Positions 1,900 through 40,065 of a DNA stretch of 64,000 nucleotides are shown here, piece after piece. The translations under genes were made by a program, and so were the position numbers. Under the pieces are notes generated by a model. The model did not search any database. It was not told the DNA's origin and saw only the letters and a program-made list of their open reading frames with translations. How positions within the stretch are numbered: position 1 is the stretch's first letter; each line of letters opens with the position of its first letter. This stretch comes from Candidatus Methanomethylophilaceae archaeon (GTDB lineage Archaea; Thermoplasmatota; Thermoplasmata; Methanomassiliicoccales; Methanomethylophilaceae): the NCBI GenBank assembly GCA_017524805.1, contig JAFXUX010000030.1, positions 1-64,000 of the forward strand, written 5' to 3'.

Positions 1900-3576
1900 T
1901 CAGCAAGGCATCTGGAAGATGTCCGGATAATCCATGGAAGAGAAGAACTCGCAGAGCACCGGATTCATGGCGACTTCTAATCCCCCGCCGGACGGGCGCA
2001 TAGCCCCTGCATATCCGCGGCGCTCTCTGGCCGCCTGGATCAGGGATTCTTCCCCGAAGAGAACATTCGCAACGAACTCTTTCTCTGGCCAGCCCCTGAC
2101 TTCTGAAAGGTCGGTCTCGGTGCAGACGGAATAGCCCCGATACGCGATAGCATTGTTCCTGCTGCCCCTGACGAAGACCCTGTAGCCGCGCAGAACGAAT
2201 TCTTTCCCTCCTGCGGGCACGACCTTGATGGACCGCGGGATAGCTATAATCAGCGTCCCGTCCTTCCTTCTGAAGGCGAACGTGAGGCTGCTGATTTTTG
2301 ACGTGTCCGAAGGGTATCTGCGGATATCCAGGCGGTTCTCCGGATCCCCTGTTTTGACTATTCTGTAGACTGCTCCAAGATCCACGTTGTAATGGCGCAG
2401 AGAATCGTCAACGTTGGCCGGGTCGAAGATTTCCAGGTTCAGCCTCTTATGCTCTGGATCGTAATCTTTGCTGTCGATCGCTGCCAGGAACGAGCTCAGA
2501 TTTGCCTTGGAATGGACCAGAACCGGCATAGCCCTCTCATCATCCGAATCTTGGTACAGGTATTGGATGTATTCGCTGCCGTTGATTTCTATGGTGCCTA
2601 TCTGCGCGTAATAAGCGGTCTTGCCCCCATATCTGACGCAATGGGACATCATATCTAACCAGCGGATCTTGAGGACGTGCTTCAGCGTATCCCTGTATAA
2701 GTCGCCGTCGAACATGAAGAATTCCGGGTTCTCCCGGTCTGGGAAAAGGCTCATCTCGAACCTGTGGTCCTTGTAAGCCAGGAATTCGTCGACATTCTCG
2801 TAGCCGTTGTAAAGACGGTCGAAATCGCCGTAGTATCTCAGCAAAGCGGCGCTTTGGGTAGGGTCCAGGACGAAATATTTCCCGTCGATCTTTATGATGC
2901 TGAAAGCGTGGTTATGCATGTTTATGTGGTTCTCTATCCCCTGCCTCAGAAGAAGCTCCCCGAGGATGAGGCAATAGCCGAGGCATATGGTGCTCCCGGT
3001 GAGAAGGCCGCGCATGCTGTTGTCGTCATAGCAGGTTTTCATGCATCCGTAAGGTGGCACGGAGATGTTGAGGCCGTCCCTGTACGAATCGTTGTACTGG
3101 ATCGTGGACGTTATGCGGCTGTGAAGATACGCGAATTTCTGGAAATTGTTCCAGCGGGGATTCATAGGCTTCTCTATGTCCGCGATCACCGCCAGAATGC
3201 GGACCAACTCATCCGATGCGTACATATGCGGGCCGAACAGAGTTTTCAGGGAACTGAGGGTGCAGCAATCGAAGCTGTCGGCGTTGTTTATGCGCAGACT
3301 GTTCCTGGCGATGTTCACGAAATGCTGGCGTATGAAATAGTCGGTGCCCTTGCTGAAACGATCCATCAGCCTCAGAAACTCGGCGCTCAGACCCAGCGTA
3401 GTCCTGAGACTTACATGGCGCGTTATGCCCGCCGCCGCAAGGAAGATCCCCTCCGCCTCCTCCTGAGAGAATATCCAGTTCGAGACGCGGGAATCCACCA
3501 GACGGAACAGGGCGGCGACATCCTTTTCCGCCCCGGGCATCCGGGCCGAGATCCTTTCGTATGCTTCCGCTCTCAT
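1900..3576 (-). CDS. transglutaminase-like protein (probably the C-terminal part of one gene with 3664-4077)
   Basis: The open frame from the first ATG gives 558 residues. A transglutaminase-like core is visible near residues 190-250: Cys in GSTICLGYCLILGELLL, His in NMHNHAFSIIKIDG and Asp in FVLDPTQ, in the Cys-His-Asp order of the papain-like fold. The rest matches nothing I can name. Reading upstream of the ATG, the same frame stays open for 29 more codons to a TAG at 3664-3666. Beyond that it joins the Sel1-repeat ORF 3664-4077. The joined frame (1900-4077) would be 725 residues: Sel1 repeats followed by the transglutaminase-like domain. There is no signal peptide. The C-terminus ends just before the acyltransferase remnant. 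Confidence 0.8.
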   Translation of the reverse strand: MRAEAYERISARMPGAEKDVAALFRLVDSRVSNWIFSQEEAEGIFLAAAGITRHVSLRTTLGLSAEFLRLMDRFSKGTDYFIRQHFVNIARNSLRINNADSFDCCTLSSLKTLFGPHMYASDELVRILAVIADIEKPMNPRWNNFQKFAYLHSRITSTIQYNDSYRDGLNISVPPYGCMKTCYDDNSMRGLLTGSTICLGYCLILGELLLRQGIENHINMHNHAFSIIKIDGKYFVLDPTQSAALLRYYGDFDRLYNGYENVDEFLAYKDHRFEMSLFPDRENPEFFMFDGDLYRDTLKHVLKIRWLDMMSHCVRYGGKTAYYAQIGTIEINGSEYIQYLYQDSDDERAMPVLVHSKANLSSFLAAIDSKDYDPEHKRLNLEIFDPANVDDSLRHYNVDLGAVYRIVKTGDPENRLDIRRYPSDTSKISSLTFAFRRKDGTLIIAIPRSIKVVPAGGKEFVLRGYRVFVRGSRNNAIAYRGYSVCTETDLSEVRGWPEKEFVANVLFGEESLIQAARERRGYAGAMRPSGGGLEVAMNPVLCEFFSSMDYPDIFQMPC

Positions 3577-3663
3577 TTCACGGTAGGGGCGGCCGCTCCA
3601 GCTTCCGGTCGGCTCATAAAACCATAGGTCGGCGAGCTCGCCGATAGCATGCTCATTCCCTTG

Positions 3664-3666
3664 CTA
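3664..3666 (-). other. in-frame TAG codon within a Sel1 repeat
   Basis: TAG interrupts an otherwise continuous 726-codon frame (1900-4077). The residues on both sides complete one Sel1 repeat. This is either a pyrrolysine codon or a nonsense mutation; see findings. Confidence 0.75.
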
Positions 3667-4077
3667 AGCTGCGATCTTGTACAGCCTGACGGCATCACTG
3701 CGAGGATTTGGCAGCCACTTCCCTTTCTCGAAAAGCTCCATCATTTTGGCCAGCGCATCCGGATCCCCTTTTTCGGCGGCCGTTCTGAACAGGCTGATGG
3801 CCTTGTCCATCGATCTGCCGACCCCGAAGCCGCTGGCATACATCTCTCCGAGAAGGAAACAGGAATGCGCATCCCCATCCTTCGCTTGACGCTCATAAAG
3901 CGCTGCCATTCTGACTGGCTGCGATTCGGATGCGTTTCCATCTTTATGGGAAACTTCCTTGGAATCAGATTGGGGATCAGTTCCTCCGGGCGGAAGGCTC
4001 TGCTCCGGAGATTCGGGTGCTGGCGGATCCGCCGGCGCGCTTTGCTTCCCCTTTCTGCGTAACCATCCGAACACCAT
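3664..4077 (-). CDS. Sel1-repeat protein, N-terminal part of a TAG-interrupted gene
   Basis: The ORF gives 137 residues. A charged, Pro/Ser-rich linker comes after an N-terminal MVFGWLRRKG. Sel1/TPR-like repeats follow: CFLLGEMYASGFGVGRSMDKA, then AISLFRTAAEKGDPDALA. The last repeat is cut by TAG in the middle of its usual helix turn: LYKIAA-TAG-QGNEHAIGELAD. Canonical Sel1 repeats read KAAEQGN at this place, and the reading frame continues past the TAG without another stop into the transglutaminase-like ORF. I therefore take this as the N-terminus of one longer protein, made by pyrrolysine insertion or else broken by a recent nonsense mutation. It is divergent from the NRPS gene, with 165 bp between the starts. 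Confidence 0.75.
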   Translation of the reverse strand: MVFGWLRRKGKQSAPADPPAPESPEQSLPPGGTDPQSDSKEVSHKDGNASESQPVRMAALYERQAKDGDAHSCFLLGEMYASGFGVGRSMDKAISLFRTAAEKGDPDALAKMMELFEKGKWLPNPRSDAVRLYKIAA

Positions 4078-4242: not shown

Positions 4243-7200
4243 ATGCGCGATGTATTCGGGATGATTTTGGAGAGAATGGAATCTTCGCCAGATAAATTGG
4301 CGATATGGACTGCCGAGGGGACCTTCACATATGATGAGCTGCGCGAATACTCCTCTCGGGCAGCGGCATCTCTGAAAAGGGACGGCCTTCAGAAGGGCCA
4401 GGGAATAACCATAGAGCTTCCCCGCTGCAAAGAATATATCGGCTTCATGCTTGGGGCATGGATGCTGGGGGCGTTCTTCGTCCCCTCTGACAGCGCTTAT
4501 CCGGACGACAGGAAAGAATTCATCGCAAAAGACAGCGGAGCCATGATACGCGTGACCCCGGATTACGTTTCCGATCTTTCGGCGGCCCCCCTCGATCGCG
4601 ATCCAGTGATCCCTTCTATGGGCGACAGAGCTTTCATCATCTACACCTCCGGATCCACGGGCCGGCCAAAAGGCGTCATCCACTCCCATCTCTCCATTTC
4701 TTCGTACGTCGAAAGGATCGAAGACATGTTCAATGTCATGGATTCCGACAGGTTCGCGAACCCTGCGGCGTTCACCTTCATCGTCGGGACCGCGATCATC
4801 CTCCCGCTGCTTGCGCTCGGGTGCGAAGACTACATAGTTCCCGCCGACGTGCGCATGAATCTCAACAAACTATCGGATTTCACCTCCGAACACGGCATAA
4901 CCATGACATTCATGGCGCCGGCGATGCTCCCATACTTCCGCCAGAGGAAGAAGACGATCCGCTTGGTCATCATCGGCGGAGAGCGCGCGGTGAAGGCATG
5001 GTCTGATGATTTCGTCATTGTCAACGGATACGGGTCCTCGGAGACCTGCAGCATGGCAACCTGCTTCTTCCTCGACAGAGCTTACGACAATACCCCTCTG
5101 GGAAAACCTGCCAAAAACGTATGCGCCTACGTTCTGGACAAAGATGGAAAGGAAGCGGAGGAAGGGGAGATATGCTTCGCCGGACACTTCTCGGACGGAT
5201 ATCTCAACCTTCCCGAAGCCACCGCCAAGGCCTTCGTCCCCAACCCGTTCAAAAATCGCGATGGATTCGGCGTGATGATCCGCACTGGGGATATAGGACG
5301 CCGCCTGGAGGACGGGAATCTGCTGTTCCTCGAGCGCAACGATTGGATGGTGAACATCAACGGGCAGCGCGTGGAGCCCGGGGAGATATCCGGGGTCATG
5401 ATGGGTTTGCCAGGCATCATCCAAGCCGCCGTGAAGGACTTCGAAGGCGCGGACGGCCAGACCTTCCTCTGCACCTATTACGCCGCGGCCGCTGACATCC
5501 CGGTGGACGCCGTACGCGACTATCTCAGAAGCAAACTGCCGGGATATATGGTTCCTGCGTATCTCATCAGGATGGATAGGCTGCCCCTGAATGCCAGCGG
5601 GAAGATCGACAGGAAATCCCTTCCGAATCCGACCGAACCAGGGAGCGGCTCGGCAATAACCGCCGGGCCGACCGATTTCGAGGAGAATGCCGTCACCAAA
5701 GGAGTGAGGGAGATTCTGAAGTCGATAACCGGAAGGGATGACTTCCGCTACGATGAGAACCTCGCATACTGCGGCCTGAGCTCTCTCACGGCAATCAAAT
5801 TCACGTCGGAAGTGATGGGAAGGTTTGGCGTCGATTTGGATGTGATTTCGATGCTGGGAGGATGCTCCATCGCCTCGGTATCGGATGAGATAATCTCCAA
5901 GCTGGTGGAGAAATCCGCTTCGGCGCCCGCGGAGAGGAAAGAGCTCAGGGACATGTACCCTCTTACCGGCCCGCAGATGGGCGTATACCAGGCATGCTAC
6001 GCGGATCCGGATACGGTGATGTACAACCTTCCGATGCAGGCCAGAATCCCGAAGAGCCAGCTGTCCGGCCGGAGTATCGATGATATAATCAGGAAGGTAG
6101 TAGAAGCCCATCCGGGCCTAAAATGCACCATCGGCCACGACGGCAAAGGGGAGCCGTGCATGATCCCCCACCCGGACGCGGAAGTCAGGATAGAGCGCAT
6201 GGGAGGCTCGGAATCCGATCTGGAGGCATACCGCGGAACGTTCGTGAGGCCATTCGACCTGTCCGAGAGCCTGTACAGGATCGTGACCTTCGATATCGGC
6301 GATGATATCGCGCTGCTTATGGACTTCAGCCACATCATGTTCGACGGATCGTCCAGTCTGGTCCTGATGGACGACATAAAGGCCGCCATATCCGGGAGAG
6401 ATCCGATAGCCGAGACTTACACCATGTTCGACCTCTCGGACGAGGAATCGGAACGTGCTGGGTCGGGAGACTATAGTCGTTCTTTGAAGTACTATAGTGA
6501 ACTTCTGTCTGATGTGGACGGAACATCCCTGATACAGAGGGACGCCTACGGCGATACCAAGTCCAAAGGCCACCTGAGATCCAAGCTGAATCTGCGGCCG
6601 GAAAGCCTCAAGACGTTCGTAGAAGCGTCTGGATCCACGGAGAACGCATTCTTCCAGTCGGTGATGGGCTTCGCCCTGTCCAGATTCAACTGCACCGACG
6701 ATTCGTGCCACGCCACGGTGCACAACGGCAGAAAAGGAGGGAGAACCTCGCGCTTGGTGGGGATGCTTGTCAAGACGCTTCCGGTCGTAGCCAGATACGA
6801 TCTTGACGAAAGCCCGGGCGCGCTGGTAAAGCGCATGACAGACCAGCTGGCAGCCTCGATGCGGAACGACACCGTGCCTTTCTCGGAGATCAGCTCCCGC
6901 TTCGGCGTGACATCGGATGTGCTCTTCGCTTACCAGGGGATCCTGGATGATGAGGGCGTCCTCGACTCCCAGATGGAGATAAAGGATGTCAAAAACGCGC
7001 TGACCGTCCAGGTCTATCCCATGAAGGACGGCTTCCTCATTGATTTGGAGTATGACGCCTCGATGTATTCGAAAGGCATCATGGAAAGCTTCCTCGATGT
7101 CCTGCAGAGATGCTCGACGGATTTCATCGTATCGCCGACGCTGAGGGACGTCGCCATCGCCGGGGAAGATGACATCGCCCTGCTGAAGCGCGTGAACTCC

Positions 7201-10200
7201 ACAGATTCGGATTATGACAGAAATAAGACTATAGTGGATTTATTCAGAGAAAGGGCAAAAGAGCGTCCAGATCGCCCGGCTGTTGAGTTTAATAGTACTA
7301 TAGTCTCCTATTCGGAACTGGACAGGATATCGGACCACATCGCTTCGTTCATCGCGTCCAAAGGCATAGGCAAAGACCGGTTCGTCGCCATCCTGGTCCC
7401 GAGATCCGAATCCATGGTCATAGCGGCGATGGGCGTGGTGAAATCGGGCGCGGCATATCAGCCTCTGGATCCGACCTATCCGGAAGAGCGCCTCCTGTAC
7501 ATGATGGGAGACTCCGACGTCAAACTGCTGATCGCCGACCGCTCCTTGGCTGGCCTGGTCCGCGGATACGAATGCGACGTGCTGTACACAGACGAATTCG
7601 ATGAAAGATTCGGAGGCCAGGCGCCGGACGTCCGCTCCCTGTCTCCCTCCCCGAAAGACGCGTTCGTTATCCTGTACACATCCGGAACCACCGGCAAACC
7701 CAAAGGGTGCGTCCTGGAAAACGGGAACATAGCTGCCTTCGCGAACTGGTACGGCGATGAGATCGGCCTGGGCCCAGAATCCAAATACGCGACGTACGCC
7801 AGCTTCGGATTCTATGCGTGCATGATGGACACTATGGTGCCCCTCTCCCGCGGATCCTGCGTATGCGTCATCCCGAACGAGATCCGCAGCGACCTCGCCG
7901 CGATGGACTCCTTCTTCACGGAGAAAGGAATCACCCACAGCTTCATGACCACGCAGATGGGCAGGATGTTCATGGAGACCATCCAATGCAGATCTCTGAG
8001 CCACTTCTGCACGGGCGGAGAAGCTCTGGTGCCGCTGAACCCACCGGATTGGATTGAATTCCGCAATCTGTACGGCCCCACGGAGACCACAGTCAGCGTA
8101 ACATCATTCATCGTCAGAGACGACAGCCCTCTCTTGCCGATAGGGAAGCCGAACACAAACGTCAGGGTGTACGTCCTGGACAGCGACCGCAGGATAGTGC
8201 CGACTGGCGCGTGCGGGGAACTCTGCATAAGCGGGCCGCAGGTATTCAGAGGGTATCTCAACAACCCTGACAAAACCGCCTCCGTCCTCGTGGACAACCC
8301 GTATTCAGACGGGCCGGACCACCGGAAGCTTTACAGGACAGGAGACATCGTCCGTCTCCTTCCCGACGGCAACATAGATTACATAGGCCGGCGCGACGGA
8401 ATGGTGAAGGTCCGCGGATTCAGGATAGAGCTCACCGAAGTCGAAAGGGCAATCCGTGCCTTCCACGGCATCAAAGATGCGACGGTGCAGGCCTTCGACG
8501 CCCCGTCCGGCGGGAAGCAGATCGCGGCGTACGTCGTCTCCGACGAAAAGGTGGATATCAAAGAATTGGAGAGCTTCATCCTCAGCACCAAACCGCCGTA
8601 CATGGTCCCGGCGGTCACGATGCAGCTGGACAGCATCCCGCTCACGGTCAACAGCAAGGTCGACAGGAGGAAGCTCCCAGTCCCGGCGCTGGACTTCGGC
8701 AAGGCGACCCCGCCTCAGACGGAAACTCAGAAGCGCATATTCAAGATAGCAACGGAAGTGCTGGGCACGGATAAGTTCGGGATAGACACGGATCTGTTTC
8801 ATGCAGGGCTCACATCCATAGGCAGCATCCGCTTCAACGTCCTGCTCTCCGATGAGTTCGGCATTCCCTTCAAATCGAAGGACATCAAAGAGAACAGCAC
8901 CATCGAGAAACTTGAGAAACTGATAGAAAGCTCCGCCCCCGCCAAAACCTACGGGATCCAGGACGACTATCCCCTCACCAAATCGCAGGAAGGGATATTC
9001 GTAGAATGCATGGCCAGGCCGGAAAGCACCGTCTACAACATCCCGCTGCTGATCAGGTACGACGATTCGATCGATGAAGGAAAGCTGAAGGCGGCCATCG
9101 TCAAGGCGGTGAACGCCCACCCCTTCATGATGGCGACGATTTTCGCCGACCAATCCGGGGACATCCGCCTGCTCAGAAAAGGCCTGCCGACGTTCTCCGA
9201 GGAGGAGATAGAAGAGGTGACCGCAAAGTCCATCGACTCCCTGATGCCGACGCTGGCCCAGCCTTTCAGACTCATCGGCTCCAGGCTGTTCCGCATCAAG
9301 CTGATACACGCCGACAGGAACTACCTGTTCATCGAGATGCACCACATAATCAGCGACGGCACATCGATGAACATACTCACCGAAGACATCACCAAAGCCT
9401 ATTCCGGCGAAGAGCTGAGCGCAGAGAAGTTCAGCGGATTCGAGGCGTCGCTCAAAGAGGCCGAGGAGAGGACCGATGAGGCCCTGTCGAAGGCGAAGAA
9501 GTACTACGATGGCCTTCTGGCCGGATACGACAGAGACTCTCTCCCCAAAGGCGACAGATACCATCCCGATCCGAGTGCCCCCAGCGTTTTCGTGATGGAA
9601 AGCGAGCTCAACTCCGCGCCCAAACTGTCCGAGAGCTGCGAGAGAGCCGGGATCACAGTCAACAGCCTCATGCTCTCGGCTTTCGGATTCGTTCTGGCGA
9701 AATACAACGGCAACGAGCATTCGGTGTTCACGACGATATACAACGGGAGGAACGACTCCAGAACCATGGATTCCATCTCGATGTACGTGAAGACGCTCCC
9801 GGTGCTCTGCGACGTCTCGGATGAGTCGATGTCACCTCTACGCCTTTCAGAGAAGACCGGTGAGCAAATTCTGAGCAGCATGGCGAACGACATCTACTCA
9901 TTCGCTGAGATCAGCCGCGAGCTGGAAGTCAAGGCCGATGTGCTGTTCGTCTATCAGGGAGACGGCTTCGGATTCGACAGCTTCTGCGGGAAGCCTTCAG
10001 AGTCCGTCATGGTAAGCCTCTCCGGAGAGAAAGAACCCATGCTTTTCCAGGCCGTGATCCAGGGCGGCAGACTCGCGTACCAGGTGGAGTACGACAAAGA
10101 CAGGTTCACAGAGAAATTCATAGGTTCCTTCGCGAGAGCTTTCGATAAGGCTCTGTCCGAGTTCCTGGGATGCGCGACCCTCCGCGAGATCAGCCTTTCT

Positions 10201-13167
10201 GACGGGAGAACAGCGGAAGCCTTCAGGAAGCTGAACGACACCGATTCGCCTTACGACAGGTCGCTGACCGTCGTCGACATGTTCAGGAAGAATGCCAGGG
10301 AGCATCCCGACAGCCTGGCCGTGGTCCACCTCGGCGAGAGCATGACCTACGGGAAGCTGGACGAGGTCACCGACCACATCGCAGGATACGTCAATTCCAA
10401 GGGCATCGGCAGGGACGAGTACGTTGCTGTGCTGGTACCCAGATCGATCCACATGGTCGTCGCGGCTGAGGGGATAATAAAGGCCGGAGCGGCATATCAG
10501 CCCCTGGATCCGACCTATCCGGAGGAGCGTCTTCTCTTCATGATGAAGGACTCCGACGTCAGGCTGCTGATAGCCGACAGAAAGCTCCGCGATATGGTCC
10601 CAGGTTATGAAGGAGAAGTGCTGTACATCGACGAGATCCCGGGCCTCTGCGCAGGCGAGCGTCCGGACGTGTCCGCGCTGGCCCCATCCCCAGAGGACGC
10701 GATCATAATTCTGTATACCTCAGGCACCACCGGGACTCCGAAGGGCTGCGTTCTCGAGCACAGGAATCTCTCCAGCTTCCTCAACTGGATGATCCCTGAG
10801 GTAAAGCTGGAGAACGGATCGAGATACGCATCGTACGCCAGCTACGGATTCGACGCGTGCATGATGGACATCCACGCATCCCTGTCCAGCGGCGCCACCG
10901 TCCACATAATCCCCGACGAGATCCGCAAGGACCTGGCCGAGGTAGACAGATACTTCATCAGCAACGGGATAACGCACGGCTTCATGACCACGCAGATGGG
11001 CAGGATGTTCATGGAGACCACCCAATGCAGATCCCTGAAGGCATTCATGTCCGGAGGGGAGAGCCTCGTGCCGCTCAACCCGCCGAAATGGGTCGACTTC
11101 TACAACATCTACGGGCCGACGGAATGCACCGTGGACGTCACCACCTTCATTGTGAAGGACGACAGCCCGCTGCTGCCGATAGGAAAGCCGAACACCAATG
11201 TGAGGCTTTACGTCATCGACAAGAGCGACAGGATCGTTCCTGTGGGTTGCTGCGGAGAGCTTTGCATCAGCGGGCCCCAGGTGTTCAGGGAATACCTCAA
11301 CAACCCCGAGAAGACAGCGAAAACCGTCACCAGAAACCCGTTCTCCGACGAGCCCGGACACGAACGCCTCTACAGGACCGGAGACGTAGTACGCCTGCTG
11401 CCGGACGGCAACATAGACTACATCGGCCGCCGCGACGGAATGGTGAAAGTCCGCGGATTCAGGATAGAGCTAGGAGAAGTGGAAGGCATCGTCCGCAGCT
11501 ACGAAGGCATCAAGAACGCCACCGTGAAAGCGTTCGACGACCCCGCCGGAGGGAAGTCGATAACCGCGTACGTAGTCTCAGACAATCCTGTGGATTTCAA
11601 AGGCCTTGCAGATTTCATAAGAGCATCCAAGCCTCCGTACATGGTCCCGGCGCATTTCGTGCAGCTGGATTCAATACCCATGAACGCCAACGGGAAGGTC
11701 GACAGAAGGAAGCTCCCAGAGCCTTCGTCCGAACCCAGGAGAGCCGGGAAGGAGCCTTCTGATCCGATGGAAGCCAAGCTGTGCGAGATATATGCCAGCG
11801 TCCTCGGCCTGAAGAAAGTCTATGCGGACGACGACTTCTTCGAGATCGGCGGTACATCCATCTCCGCGTCCAAGCTGGTGCTGAGCTGCATGAACTCCGG
11901 GTTCCCGATAGTCTACAAGAACGTCTTCGACAACCCGTCGCCGGAATCTTTGGCCAAGTTCATCGGGACCTTGGGACAGACCGGCAAGGAGGAAACCAGA
12001 GCGGCGATCGACGAGAGCCCGCTGTCTTGGAACGTAACGGAGAACCTGGATTCCATAAGCTCCCACAGCCCGCGCAGGATCCTTCTGACCGGAGCCACCG
12101 GATACCTCGGTTCCCACGTCCTATGGGAGCTTCTGAGAAGGAACGCCAAGCATGTCTATTGCCTGGTCAGAAGCGGGAAGGGCCAGACTTCCGAGGAAAG
12201 ACTGAAAACCATGTATATGTACTACTTCGGCGGGATGGGCACCGAAGACTCCCTCAGAAACGTCACGGTCATCGACAGCGACATCACCGACCCGAATCTG
12301 ATGAGCAAACTTGAGGGATGCGAGTTCGACACCATCATCAACTGCGCCGCGGTGGTGAAGCACTTCGCCGCGGACGATTCGATAGACAAGGTGAACGTCG
12401 GCGGAGTGACGAATCTCATAGGCGTGGCGGAAAAGACCGGTTCCATCTTGGTTCAGATCTCCACCGAAAGCGTGGCCGGGGAATCCGTCAACGGAAGCAT
12501 ACCTCCCGAACGCAAGATCAGAGAGAATGAGCTGGACTTCGGACAGAACCTGGACAACAAATACGCCCGCTCCAAGTTCATGGCCGAGGAGGAGATCATC
12601 AAGGCCATCCCGAGCGGCCTGAAGGCGAAGATAATCCGCGTGGGTAACCTGATGAGCCGCGACAGCGACGGAGAGTTCCAGATCAACTTCGGCACCAACG
12701 CGTTCATGAAGCAGATGAAATCCTATGTGAAGCTGGGATTCTTCTCGGTCACCGACATGGACTCAGAGGTGGAGTTCTCCCCCATAGACATGGTCGCGAA
12801 GGCCGTCGTCATCCTCGCTGGCACCCCCGATAAGTTTACCACGTTCCACGTGAGCAACTGCCACAAAGTCCACATGGCAAACGTGCTCAAAGTCATGAGG
12901 GACAACGGGATGCCTGTCGAGGTCGTTTCGAAGAAGGAATTCGAGAGAAGGTTCCAGGAAGCGATGAAAGACGAATCCAATGTGGAGTACATCTCCGGAC
13001 TGATCAGCTATCTGGGCAACGCAGGGGAGTCGCGCAGGTTCGTGGCCGCGGACGATTCGTATACTGTGAAAGCGCTGTACAGGCTCGGGTTCTCGTGGCC
13101 GATCATATCCGACGGATACATCGACAAGGCGTTCAAAGCCCTCAAGTCCATGAGATTCTTCAGATGA
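4243..13167 (+). CDS. three-module non-ribosomal peptide synthetase with terminal reductase domain
   Basis: This 2974-residue NRPS reads A1-T1-C1-A2-T2-C2-A3-T3-R. A1 (about 1-475) has IIYTSGSTG near 132-140. T1 carries its phosphopantetheine Ser at 514. C1 (about 570-985) has SHIMFDG at 696-702, and A2 spans about 1000-1480. The T2 Ser is 1525. C2 (about 1575-1995) has HHIISDG at 1700-1706, and A3 spans about 2010-2490. The T3 Ser is 2539. R (about 2605-2970) has GATGYLG at 2617-2623 and an SDR-type YxxxK at 2774-2778. All A domains keep the NxxGKxDRK lysine. The layout predicts a chain of three building blocks released by NAD(P)H as an aldehyde or alcohol. No N-terminal C domain or thioesterase is present, so A1-T1 is the loading module. 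A1 and A2 lack the Asp that binds the alpha-amino group. The PPTase follows after 19 bp, probably in one operon. Confidence 0.96.
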   Translation: MRDVFGMILERMESSPDKLAIWTAEGTFTYDELREYSSRAAASLKRDGLQKGQGITIELPRCKEYIGFMLGAWMLGAFFVPSDSAYPDDRKEFIAKDSGAMIRVTPDYVSDLSAAPLDRDPVIPSMGDRAFIIYTSGSTGRPKGVIHSHLSISSYVERIEDMFNVMDSDRFANPAAFTFIVGTAIILPLLALGCEDYIVPADVRMNLNKLSDFTSEHGITMTFMAPAMLPYFRQRKKTIRLVIIGGERAVKAWSDDFVIVNGYGSSETCSMATCFFLDRAYDNTPLGKPAKNVCAYVLDKDGKEAEEGEICFAGHFSDGYLNLPEATAKAFVPNPFKNRDGFGVMIRTGDIGRRLEDGNLLFLERNDWMVNINGQRVEPGEISGVMMGLPGIIQAAVKDFEGADGQTFLCTYYAAAADIPVDAVRDYLRSKLPGYMVPAYLIRMDRLPLNASGKIDRKSLPNPTEPGSGSAITAGPTDFEENAVTKGVREILKSITGRDDFRYDENLAYCGLSSLTAIKFTSEVMGRFGVDLDVISMLGGCSIASVSDEIISKLVEKSASAPAERKELRDMYPLTGPQMGVYQACYADPDTVMYNLPMQARIPKSQLSGRSIDDIIRKVVEAHPGLKCTIGHDGKGEPCMIPHPDAEVRIERMGGSESDLEAYRGTFVRPFDLSESLYRIVTFDIGDDIALLMDFSHIMFDGSSSLVLMDDIKAAISGRDPIAETYTMFDLSDEESERAGSGDYSRSLKYYSELLSDVDGTSLIQRDAYGDTKSKGHLRSKLNLRPESLKTFVEASGSTENAFFQSVMGFALSRFNCTDDSCHATVHNGRKGGRTSRLVGMLVKTLPVVARYDLDESPGALVKRMTDQLAASMRNDTVPFSEISSRFGVTSDVLFAYQGILDDEGVLDSQMEIKDVKNALTVQVYPMKDGFLIDLEYDASMYSKGIMESFLDVLQRCSTDFIVSPTLRDVAIAGEDDIALLKRVNSTDSDYDRNKTIVDLFRERAKERPDRPAVEFNSTIVSYSELDRISDHIASFIASKGIGKDRFVAILVPRSESMVIAAMGVVKSGAAYQPLDPTYPEERLLYMMGDSDVKLLIADRSLAGLVRGYECDVLYTDEFDERFGGQAPDVRSLSPSPKDAFVILYTSGTTGKPKGCVLENGNIAAFANWYGDEIGLGPESKYATYASFGFYACMMDTMVPLSRGSCVCVIPNEIRSDLAAMDSFFTEKGITHSFMTTQMGRMFMETIQCRSLSHFCTGGEALVPLNPPDWIEFRNLYGPTETTVSVTSFIVRDDSPLLPIGKPNTNVRVYVLDSDRRIVPTGACGELCISGPQVFRGYLNNPDKTASVLVDNPYSDGPDHRKLYRTGDIVRLLPDGNIDYIGRRDGMVKVRGFRIELTEVERAIRAFHGIKDATVQAFDAPSGGKQIAAYVVSDEKVDIKELESFILSTKPPYMVPAVTMQLDSIPLTVNSKVDRRKLPVPALDFGKATPPQTETQKRIFKIATEVLGTDKFGIDTDLFHAGLTSIGSIRFNVLLSDEFGIPFKSKDIKENSTIEKLEKLIESSAPAKTYGIQDDYPLTKSQEGIFVECMARPESTVYNIPLLIRYDDSIDEGKLKAAIVKAVNAHPFMMATIFADQSGDIRLLRKGLPTFSEEEIEEVTAKSIDSLMPTLAQPFRLIGSRLFRIKLIHADRNYLFIEMHHIISDGTSMNILTEDITKAYSGEELSAEKFSGFEASLKEAEERTDEALSKAKKYYDGLLAGYDRDSLPKGDRYHPDPSAPSVFVMESELNSAPKLSESCERAGITVNSLMLSAFGFVLAKYNGNEHSVFTTIYNGRNDSRTMDSISMYVKTLPVLCDVSDESMSPLRLSEKTGEQILSSMANDIYSFAEISRELEVKADVLFVYQGDGFGFDSFCGKPSESVMVSLSGEKEPMLFQAVIQGGRLAYQVEYDKDRFTEKFIGSFARAFDKALSEFLGCATLREISLSDGRTAEAFRKLNDTDSPYDRSLTVVDMFRKNAREHPDSLAVVHLGESMTYGKLDEVTDHIAGYVNSKGIGRDEYVAVLVPRSIHMVVAAEGIIKAGAAYQPLDPTYPEERLLFMMKDSDVRLLIADRKLRDMVPGYEGEVLYIDEIPGLCAGERPDVSALAPSPEDAIIILYTSGTTGTPKGCVLEHRNLSSFLNWMIPEVKLENGSRYASYASYGFDACMMDIHASLSSGATVHIIPDEIRKDLAEVDRYFISNGITHGFMTTQMGRMFMETTQCRSLKAFMSGGESLVPLNPPKWVDFYNIYGPTECTVDVTTFIVKDDSPLLPIGKPNTNVRLYVIDKSDRIVPVGCCGELCISGPQVFREYLNNPEKTAKTVTRNPFSDEPGHERLYRTGDVVRLLPDGNIDYIGRRDGMVKVRGFRIELGEVEGIVRSYEGIKNATVKAFDDPAGGKSITAYVVSDNPVDFKGLADFIRASKPPYMVPAHFVQLDSIPMNANGKVDRRKLPEPSSEPRRAGKEPSDPMEAKLCEIYASVLGLKKVYADDDFFEIGGTSISASKLVLSCMNSGFPIVYKNVFDNPSPESLAKFIGTLGQTGKEETRAAIDESPLSWNVTENLDSISSHSPRRILLTGATGYLGSHVLWELLRRNAKHVYCLVRSGKGQTSEERLKTMYMYYFGGMGTEDSLRNVTVIDSDITDPNLMSKLEGCEFDTIINCAAVVKHFAADDSIDKVNVGGVTNLIGVAEKTGSILVQISTESVAGESVNGSIPPERKIRENELDFGQNLDNKYARSKFMAEEEIIKAIPSGLKAKIIRVGNLMSRDSDGEFQINFGTNAFMKQMKSYVKLGFFSVTDMDSEVEFSPIDMVAKAVVILAGTPDKFTTFHVSNCHKVHMANVLKVMRDNGMPVEVVSKKEFERRFQEAMKDESNVEYISGLISYLGNAGESRRFVAADDSYTVKALYRLGFSWPIISDGYIDKAFKALKSMRFFR

Positions 13168-31986: not shown

Positions 31987-31989
31987 CTA
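31987..31989 (-). other. in-frame TAG between a membrane domain and a soluble domain
   Basis: TAG separates two ORFs in the same frame (codon 174 of 328). No other stop lies between them and the linking codons look like coding sequence. See findings. Confidence 0.65.
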
Positions 31990-38805: not shown

Positions 38806-39268
38806 TTGTAAGGCCCCTCATGATGACGATCCTGAATATGTCGACCGCCTGATAGATGTAAAGGCCGACGTTCAGCAGGACCATAATAAGGCTGTTCCCC
38901 GCCGAGAGGATGATGTACCAATATATGGCGGTCATCGACAGGAACATTCCTCCCCTTATCCATTCCTTCATGATGAGATGTCCCAGCCCCAGTATCGGAA
39001 TGAAACCGGCGATGAGCGCGGTGAACATAGCGATGGCCCCATACTTTCCGAATCCGATTCTGATCGGGGCGGCCGTAGGAAGCTTGGCGCCGCATTTGCC
39101 GCAGTAAAGCTCTCCGATCCCGGTCTCCGCGCCGCAGCTGGGGCAAAAGCTGGCCTGACCGCCGTCGTCATTGATGGGATACGCCTTCGATTTCAGGCAT
39201 CCGCACTTGTAGCAGAAATCAGAATCGCCTGGTATCTCGCTTCCGCATTCAGAGCATATGTATCTCAT
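38432..39268 (-). CDS. double zinc-ribbon membrane protein (frame probably ends at 38802 but for a 1-base indel)
   Basis: The first about 155 residues are sensible. Two zinc ribbons (CSECGSEIP..FCYKCGC and CPSCGAETG..YCGKCGA) are followed by membrane helices (AMFTALIAGFIPILGLG, SLIMVLLNVGLYIYQAVDIF). From residue 155 the ORF runs 374 bp through rfcL in another frame, and that tail looks like shadow sequence. One extra G in the GGGG run at about 38814-38817 would instead give RGPYK and a TGA that overlaps the rfcL ATG as ATGA. The true coding end is probably 38802. The start has an ATGA overlap with the read-through end of the ABC gene. The family resembles zinc-ribbon membrane proteins of unknown role. 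Confidence 0.6.
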   Translation of the reverse strand: MRYICSECGSEIPGDSDFCYKCGCLKSKAYPINDDGGQASFCPSCGAETGIGELYCGKCGAKLPTAAPIRIGFGKYGAIAMFTALIAGFIPILGLGHLIMKEWIRGGMFLSMTAIYWYIILSAGNSLIMVLLNVGLYIYQAVDIFRIVIMRGLTNERLDREIPPSHSRRSDRKSLCGQFSEAMGEAVGNRHSQIPCGSPDGIAGDREDHLGFGSRGGDGLGCRGDERLRPAHRERHRADSSARLPIQHLRRGRQLYASFRGQKEAHNIGRSRQFLREL

Positions 39269-39348
39269 TCGGTTCCTCCGGCCAATCTCATCGAGTACAA
39301 TCCGTCATGGAAACCAACCTTTATATTGTCTCCATATAGCTCGGAGAT

Positions 39349-39351
39349 CTA
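39349..39351 (-). other. in-frame TAG before a family-typical ABC C-terminus
   Basis: TAG at codon 239, followed by 27 in-frame codons that fit the ABC-ATPase C-terminus and end in ATGA overlap with the next gene. See findings. Confidence 0.75.
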
Positions 39352-40065
39352 AGCGTCGGTGAGGAGATCTTCTTTCCTTCCGTCGCAGAAGACCTCGCCG
39401 TCTTTGATCATTATGATGCGGCCCATGGATTCTGGGATGTCGGTAAGGTCATGGGTGATCATCGCTATGCTAACCCCTCTGGCCATGAGGATGTCGAACA
39501 TCGCGCGGAACTTCGATTTCATCACGATGTCAAGGCCGGTCATGGGCTCATCCAGCACAAGAAGGTCTGGCGAAGTGGCCATTGCCCTGGCGATCAGGAC
39601 GCGCCTCATCTCTCCCAAAGACAGGTTCTCGATTGCCCTGTCCAGAACGTCCTCCACGCCCATCATCACCGCCGCCGACCTGGCAGCCGAAGCCATCTCC
39701 GGGGTGACCTGCATGTTGCGGAAGATATCCATGCTGCTGAAGAACCCTGAGCAGATGACCTCGAACGAAGTTGTGTCCGGACGGAATCTGTTCTGAAGAT
39801 CCATTGACACCACGCCCATCTTGCCGCGTATATCGAAGATATTCCAGCGGTCCCTGCCGAATATCCTTATTCTGCCTGGTTTGTCCTCGTCATAGTACGG
39901 GAGTATGTCCCCGCGGAGAAGCTTGATCAATGTCGTCTTTCCGGAACCGTTGGGGCCGATGACCGCGACATTCTCGCCTTTGCGGATGGTCATGGTCACG
40001 TTTTTGAGTATGTACTTGCCGTCCCTTCTCACGGAAACGTTCTCAAGCTCCAGCGCGGATTCCAT
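39349..40065 (-). CDS. ABC-type ATPase; frame continues past TAG to 39265
   Basis: This 238-residue ATPase has Walker A GPNGSGKTTL, signature LSLGEMRR, Walker B LLVLDEPMTGLD and switch MITHDLTDIP. There is no permease gene next to it, so it may be a stand-alone ModF/YlmA-like protein. The ORF stops at TAG (39349-39351) in the middle of the usual C-terminus. Past the TAG the frame reads ISELYGDNIKVGFHDGLYSM and ends seven codons later at TGA 39265-39267. That TGA forms a 4-bp ATGA overlap with the zinc-ribbon gene. The tail has the form L..LYG..I.V...G.Y typical of this family, so the real protein probably has 266 residues with TAG read as an amino acid. Confidence 0.9.
   Translation of the reverse strand: MESALELENVSVRRDGKYILKNVTMTIRKGENVAVIGPNGSGKTTLIKLLRGDILPYYDEDKPGRIRIFGRDRWNIFDIRGKMGVVSMDLQNRFRPDTTSFEVICSGFFSSMDIFRNMQVTPEMASAARSAAVMMGVEDVLDRAIENLSLGEMRRVLIARAMATSPDLLVLDEPMTGLDIVMKSKFRAMFDILMARGVSIAMITHDLTDIPESMGRIIMIKDGEVFCDGRKEDLLTDA

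Follow-up and report, generated by a model that had tools for sequence, protein, structure and literature searches.

In some archaea, TAG is reportedly a general sense codon for pyrrolysine, as a 2025 paper in Science on an archaeal 'Pyl code' is said to propose. In the methylamine methyltransferases, pyrrolysine occupies the active site (PMC9842639). Beyond these enzymes, 16 non-methyltransferase Pyl proteins have been predicted in Ca. Methanomethylophilus alvus, one of them being a Sel-1 domain protein of 389 aa (AGI86303.1); TAG makes up 1.6% of the stops in this organism, where the in-frame TAG was proposed as a stable mutation (Borrel et al., 2014, PMC4153887). Amber stops are likewise described as little used in the order as a whole (Borrel et al., 2014, Archaea, PMC3941956). 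Judging by titles and the beginnings of abstracts, only Borrel et al. proved relevant in the open-access library searched for pyrrolysine together with Sel1, or with citrate synthase and TAG. As such Pyl proteins, including a Sel-1 one, were already predicted in 2014, the gene described below adds to a known type.

The window, i.e. the whole stretch of DNA analysed, covers 64,000 nucleotides of a Candidatus Methanomethylophilaceae archaeon, a methanogen from a rumen-type lineage, whose genome (G000) is a draft of 1.95 Mb in 47 contigs. On the minus strand, a frame of 725 codons plus stop runs from an ATG at 4077-4075 to a TGA at 1902-1900, and translation table 11 splits it into products of 137 aa (3664-4077) and 558 aa (1900-3576). 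The sole stop inside it is a TAG at 3666-3664, codon 138. The earlier note, which regarded both ORFs as one gene split by this codon, gave the position and the flanking peptide (LYKIAA-TAG-QGNEHAIG) correctly, and its statement that the 726-codon frame holds no other stop is borne out; it named neither the strand nor pyrrolysine, nor the context of the whole genome. The features of the locus are as follows.

1900-4077, minus strand: joined gene, 725 codons plus stop, with the TAG taken as a residue
3667-4077, minus strand: upstream part, 137 codons, with a disordered-looking N-terminus and Sel1 repeats
3763-3870, minus strand: Sel1 repeat (PF08238), residues 70-105, 35.5 bits against a cut-off of 30.7
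3664-3666, minus strand: in-frame TAG, codon 138, proposed pyrrolysine
3577-3663, minus strand: 29 codons from the TAG to ATG 3576, aligned with the G069 homologue and holding the last predicted solenoid helix (residues 142-153)
1900-3576, minus strand: 558-aa ORF after the TAG, starting at ATG 3576 in the table 11 listing
2857-3006, minus strand: transglutaminase-like stretch (PF04473, DUF553), residues 358-407, 21.6 bits against 20.5

Across an AT-rich gap from the joined gene lies a divergent neighbour (4243-13167, plus strand) encoding a non-ribosomal peptide synthetase-like protein of 2974 aa, with three AMP-binding and two condensation domains and a reductase-type end.

Very probably, the two ORFs constitute one gene for a 725-residue Sel1/transglutaminase-like protein, in which the TAG at codon 138 is read as pyrrolysine. 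PylRS would charge tRNA-Pyl(CUA) with pyrrolysine, this tRNA would read the TAG and translation would continue to the TGA at 1900, the predicted product carrying a TPR-like Sel1 solenoid at its N-terminus and, after it, a transglutaminase-like domain that has a Cys-His-Asp set. The proposal of the earlier note is supported by a continuous homologue, by the presence of the pyrrolysine set and by the occurrence of TAG in conserved genes.

Regarding the homologue, a tblastn search covering 102 genomes from the family yielded a single full-length match besides the window itself, in a genome of the same genus (G069), where residues 68-716 align in one piece across the TAG with 44% identity and without any stop inside; the other family matches listed reach the Sel1 part only (residues below about 195). 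As the alignment places Arg (AGG, in AARQGD) opposite the window TAG, the gene of G069 is a single one with a sense codon at this site (1/1), which is the outcome that the earlier note had named as favourable; it neither stops at the TAG nor begins at the equivalent of ATG 3576, either of which had been given as a ground for rejection. Among the genomes searched, the association of Sel1 with a transglutaminase-like domain was found only in these two genes. The downstream part alone, compared with 389 genomes of the phylum, matched its own genome and none of the 388 others, a sample from which G069 was presumably absent, and scanning the joined protein against genome_contigs gave 24 pattern matches, none of which was confirmed as a relative. 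The G069 frame taken as the gene is itself interrupted by a TAG, at codon 26 (DARA-TAG-RSLGFKHQTGNGVERS); in the 56-aa fragment around it, the Sel1 match lies after the TAG only (residues 28-54, 22.7 bits, under the cut-off), so that the N-terminus of this homologue is uncertain.

The coding score of the 558-codon part (203 bits, i.e. 0.364 per codon, for a median of 0.398 in called genes), together with the one-piece match in G069, indicates that the joined frame is more than a product of chance. The score is weak in the 137-codon part (0.089 per codon) and nil (0.0 bits) over the 29 codons that lead from the TAG to ATG 3576. The latter void would suit a true stop separating two genes, a 137-aa Sel1 protein and a transglutaminase-like protein translated from ATG 3576 by reinitiation or from its own start, but this arrangement is unlikely given that the G069 homologue keeps a single frame through the site and that conserved genes elsewhere in the genome contain TAGs that are read through. 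Besides, no Shine-Dalgarno-like motif was found 4-14 bases before ATG 3576, nor before ATG 4077, a test that does not discriminate as the motif is present in just 80/257 genes. Less likely still is a recent pseudogene, that is a nonsense mutation in a formerly intact gene without useful read-through: while the sense codon of G069 is a single base change away (AGG to TAG), no second stop or frameshift occurs over 725 codons, codon usage is normal in the 558-codon part and, as TAG is decoded in the citrate synthase and the riboflavin synthase of this genome, the gene would remain active after a change of this kind.

At the protein level, the Sel1 repeat at residues 70-105 is the only one above the Pfam cut-off in the joined protein, and the DUF553 match, narrowly above its own, covers model positions 57-114 of 140, none being reported for G069. 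Cys365, His390 and Asp405 are shared without change by the protein and its G069 homologue and would correspond to the Cys, His and Asp of the transglutaminase superfamily triad. From its domains, the protein is likely to combine a Sel1 binding scaffold with a transglutaminase-like hydrolase or transferase. As to the claim that the TAG falls inside a Sel1 repeat, a profile built from the window and G069 proteins matches solved Sel1 proteins across the TAG column, e.g. 6ok3 over columns 29-185 with the TAG at column 175 by our own count, but the Pfam Sel1 model recognises nothing in a fragment that surrounds the TAG and corresponds to the last, degenerate repeat. That the site is often Glu was checked weakly, Glu being found at 3/8 repeat sites (from three genes; a stricter pattern leaves two sites), against Arg in G069. 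The single-sequence AlphaFold model, poor as a whole (mean pLDDT of 39.2), is informative only between about residues 51 and 150, with block means of 74-90 over residues 51-120 and 59-73 over residues 121-150. Its helices span residues 53-66, 70-82, 90-102, 106-117, 125-138 and 142-153; given the last two, the TAG closes one helix and the partner helix comes next. In this model, the 137-aa product would be devoid of the last solenoid helix, which also weighs against two separate genes. Since the site is variable, lies between two repeat helices and is occupied by Arg in G069, codon 138 probably tolerates pyrrolysine as a surface residue similar to lysine, and catalysis would not require it.

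Sel1 repeats are strongly expanded in this genome, with 130 matches, and such expansions have been reported for gut members of the order (PMC7883539). Another protein, combining Sel1 and DUF6270 (L044:11506-13722, minus strand), has a TAG at codon 487 in an apparent Sel1 repeat (ARYGLC-TAG-IKGIGI), although Pfam gave no match on the fragment around it.

The machinery for pyrrolysine decoding is present in the genome. PylS (TIGR02367) scores 252.9 bits against a cut-off of 178.15 (G000:C25:7387-8031), directly downstream of a tRNA-Pyl with anticodon CTA predicted by ARAGORN (L067:7127-7197), and each of the two MtmB matches has one in-frame TAG. Within the genus, PylS exceeds the cut-off in 27/31 genomes, and none does so in G062 (82% complete). 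Near mtmB, the Rfam PYLIS_1 hit (L067:4831-4933) has a score of 21, far under the gathering score of 70. We infer from this machinery that the inserted residue would be pyrrolysine; the efficiency of read-through and the role of the protein are inferences as well. As the residue cannot be read from the sequence alone, another suppressor tRNA inserting an ordinary amino acid at a sense TAG may be envisaged, but this has a negligible probability when tRNA-Pyl (CTA) and PylS are both present and no other CTA tRNA was seen in the tRNA scan of the window and L067. The release factor aRF1 (L070) carries the usual NIKS and YxCxxxF motifs and so looks canonical, which is a point in favour of two genes. 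A degree of termination at TAG is thus likely, and at codon 138 it may also give rise to the 137-aa product.

The reading of codon 138 as pyrrolysine can be set against the fate of TAG in the rest of the genome, sampled over 464 kb (400 kb of stretches plus the window). A simple method based on codon usage called 384 genes, of which 14 end with TAG, 45 with TAA and 325 with TGA. A coding signal in the 20 codons after the stop occurs for 7/22 TAG vs. 17/325 TAA or TGA (Fisher p=0.00026), a result that depends on the length considered, namely 8/22 vs. 21/325 for 15 codons (p=0.00013), 4/22 vs. 16/325 for 30 codons (p=0.03) and 5/22 vs. 19/325 for 40 codons (p=0.012). With an ATG within 10 codons at 13 of the 17 signal-positive TAA/TGA sites, against 2/7 for TAG, the former are mostly starts of the next gene. 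The window TAG lies outside the seven signal-positive TAG sites, as the 29 codons that follow it score 0.0 bits. At some sites TAG may nevertheless act as a stop, since the extensions of 5/14 TAG-ended genes score below 0.

Ten TAG-joined proteins, hand-picked as coding-looking from 30 TAG sites (29 besides that of the window gene), were scanned for conserved families, and in five of them a match over the cut-off crosses the TAG. Apart from a SAM methyltransferase (TAG at residue 93, PF13649 match 56-121) and a DUF7064 protein (TAG at residue 269, match 167-283), these comprise the first three features below, which are followed by two further candidates from the window.

L061:13319-14722, minus strand: citrate synthase, TAG at codon 76, NF010635 match 24-467 (693 bits) crossing the TAG
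L061:6553-7086, plus strand: archaeal riboflavin synthase, TAG at codon 72, TIGR01506 match 26-175 (236 bits) crossing the TAG
L054:2488-3693, plus strand: IS66-type transposase-like protein, TAG at codon 172, DUF6444 (PF20042) match 116-197 crossing the TAG
39268-40065 of the window, minus strand: ABC transporter ATPase, second in-window case, TAG at 39349-39351 (codon 239) with 27 further codons
31528-32508 of the window, minus strand: membrane-type protein, third in-window candidate, TAG at 31987-31989 (codon 174)

In the ABC ATPase, the NF010068 match (2-253) crosses the TAG but stays under its cut-off, and the membrane-type protein has 153 coding-like codons after the TAG and no family match. 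For the remaining four of the ten (the Sel1/DUF6270 protein, a MarR protein and two family-less proteins), no match was shown to cross the TAG, and an eleventh TAG-joined protein (L057:432-818) matched no family. The transposase-like gene is apparently part of a mobile element living with TAG decoding, or else a decayed copy. As a control, none of 16 proteins joined across TGA or TAA had a Pfam match over the cut-off across the stop (0/16), the set being 16 of the 17 filter-passing sites after omission of one crossing a stretch border. The choice differed somewhat between both sets: the filter had retained seven TAG sites, and these supply six of the ten proteins, three of which show a match above its cut-off that crosses the TAG. 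Overall, this genome seldom uses TAG as a stop, and the TAG of the window gene would be one among many that are read through.

In 253 kb of G069, a coding signal likewise follows TAG more often than other stops (7/23 vs. 11/160, p=0.0025), and the citrate synthase TAG is the same as in the window's genome. Besides, two pairs of similar genes on its minus strand (L077, about 10705 and 13052; L080, about 1937 and 9408) share a TAG at the matching place, which seems to predate or to survive the duplication.

Citrate synthase is probably a better test case than the window gene for pyrrolysine in a core enzyme. Among 102 genomes of the family, 46 gave a match and the loci of 30 were aligned. TAG occupies one and the same alignment column in 5/30 genomes (G000, G061, G069, G057 and G062; relatives at L084, L085, L086 and L092), the other residues there being I (6), E (5), R (4), K (4), V (3), T (2) and N (1); GAG, AGG and AAG are each one step from TAG. 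A second column has a TAG common to G054 and G055, and a third one in G063, so that TAG is found inside citrate synthase in 8/30 genomes vs. 0/30 for TAA or TGA. Ahead of the aligned start region, G065 has two TGA and G057 an additional TAG. Among the unaligned matches, with stops counted irrespective of their place, G014 and G023 have one TAG each, G018 and G020 one TAA each, a copy in G017 one TGA and the second copy in G063 one TAG. As the genome is a metagenome-derived draft of 47 contigs, the window TAG might also stem from faulty sequencing or assembly, but this is most improbable when the codon that recurs in frame in unrelated genes is TAG, not TAA or TGA, and when that of citrate synthase lies at an identical position in 5/30 separate genomes.

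Beyond the decoding of codon 138, we lean slightly towards a broader view, in which TAG would be mainly a sense codon in the genus, with pyrrolysine in housekeeping enzymes and in expanded Sel1 families, perhaps several dozen genes, and a dependence on pyrrolysine reaching far beyond the use of methylamines. Should pyrrolysine be inserted as proposed, these methanogens rely on the pyrrolysine pathway for core enzymes. In practice, real proteins are hidden when gene callers using table 11 cut such genes in two, as for the window gene, citrate synthase and riboflavin synthase. More generally, the subject bears on the conversion of a stop codon into a sense codon.

Compared with known systems, the window gene resembles the Pyl proteins of Ca. 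M. alvus, a member of the same family, where in-frame TAGs in ordinary genes also came to light by joining TAG-split CDSs (PMC4153887). Unlike AGI86303.1, the window protein is 725 aa long and joined to a transglutaminase-like domain, and the table of that paper mentions neither citrate synthase nor riboflavin synthase, both with a TAG in the present genome. The methylamine methyltransferases MtmB, MtbB and MttB are comparable in that this genome also reads through an in-frame TAG in one of them (MtmB), whereas the site in the window protein is variable and located in a repeat instead of being an active-site pyrrolysine. The protein is akin to Sel1 repeat proteins by its one repeat over the Pfam cut-off but differs from them by the fusion to a transglutaminase-like domain. 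Reading TAG as pyrrolysine has been described before for this archaeal family, and in the present genome it seems to extend into everyday enzymes such as citrate synthase.
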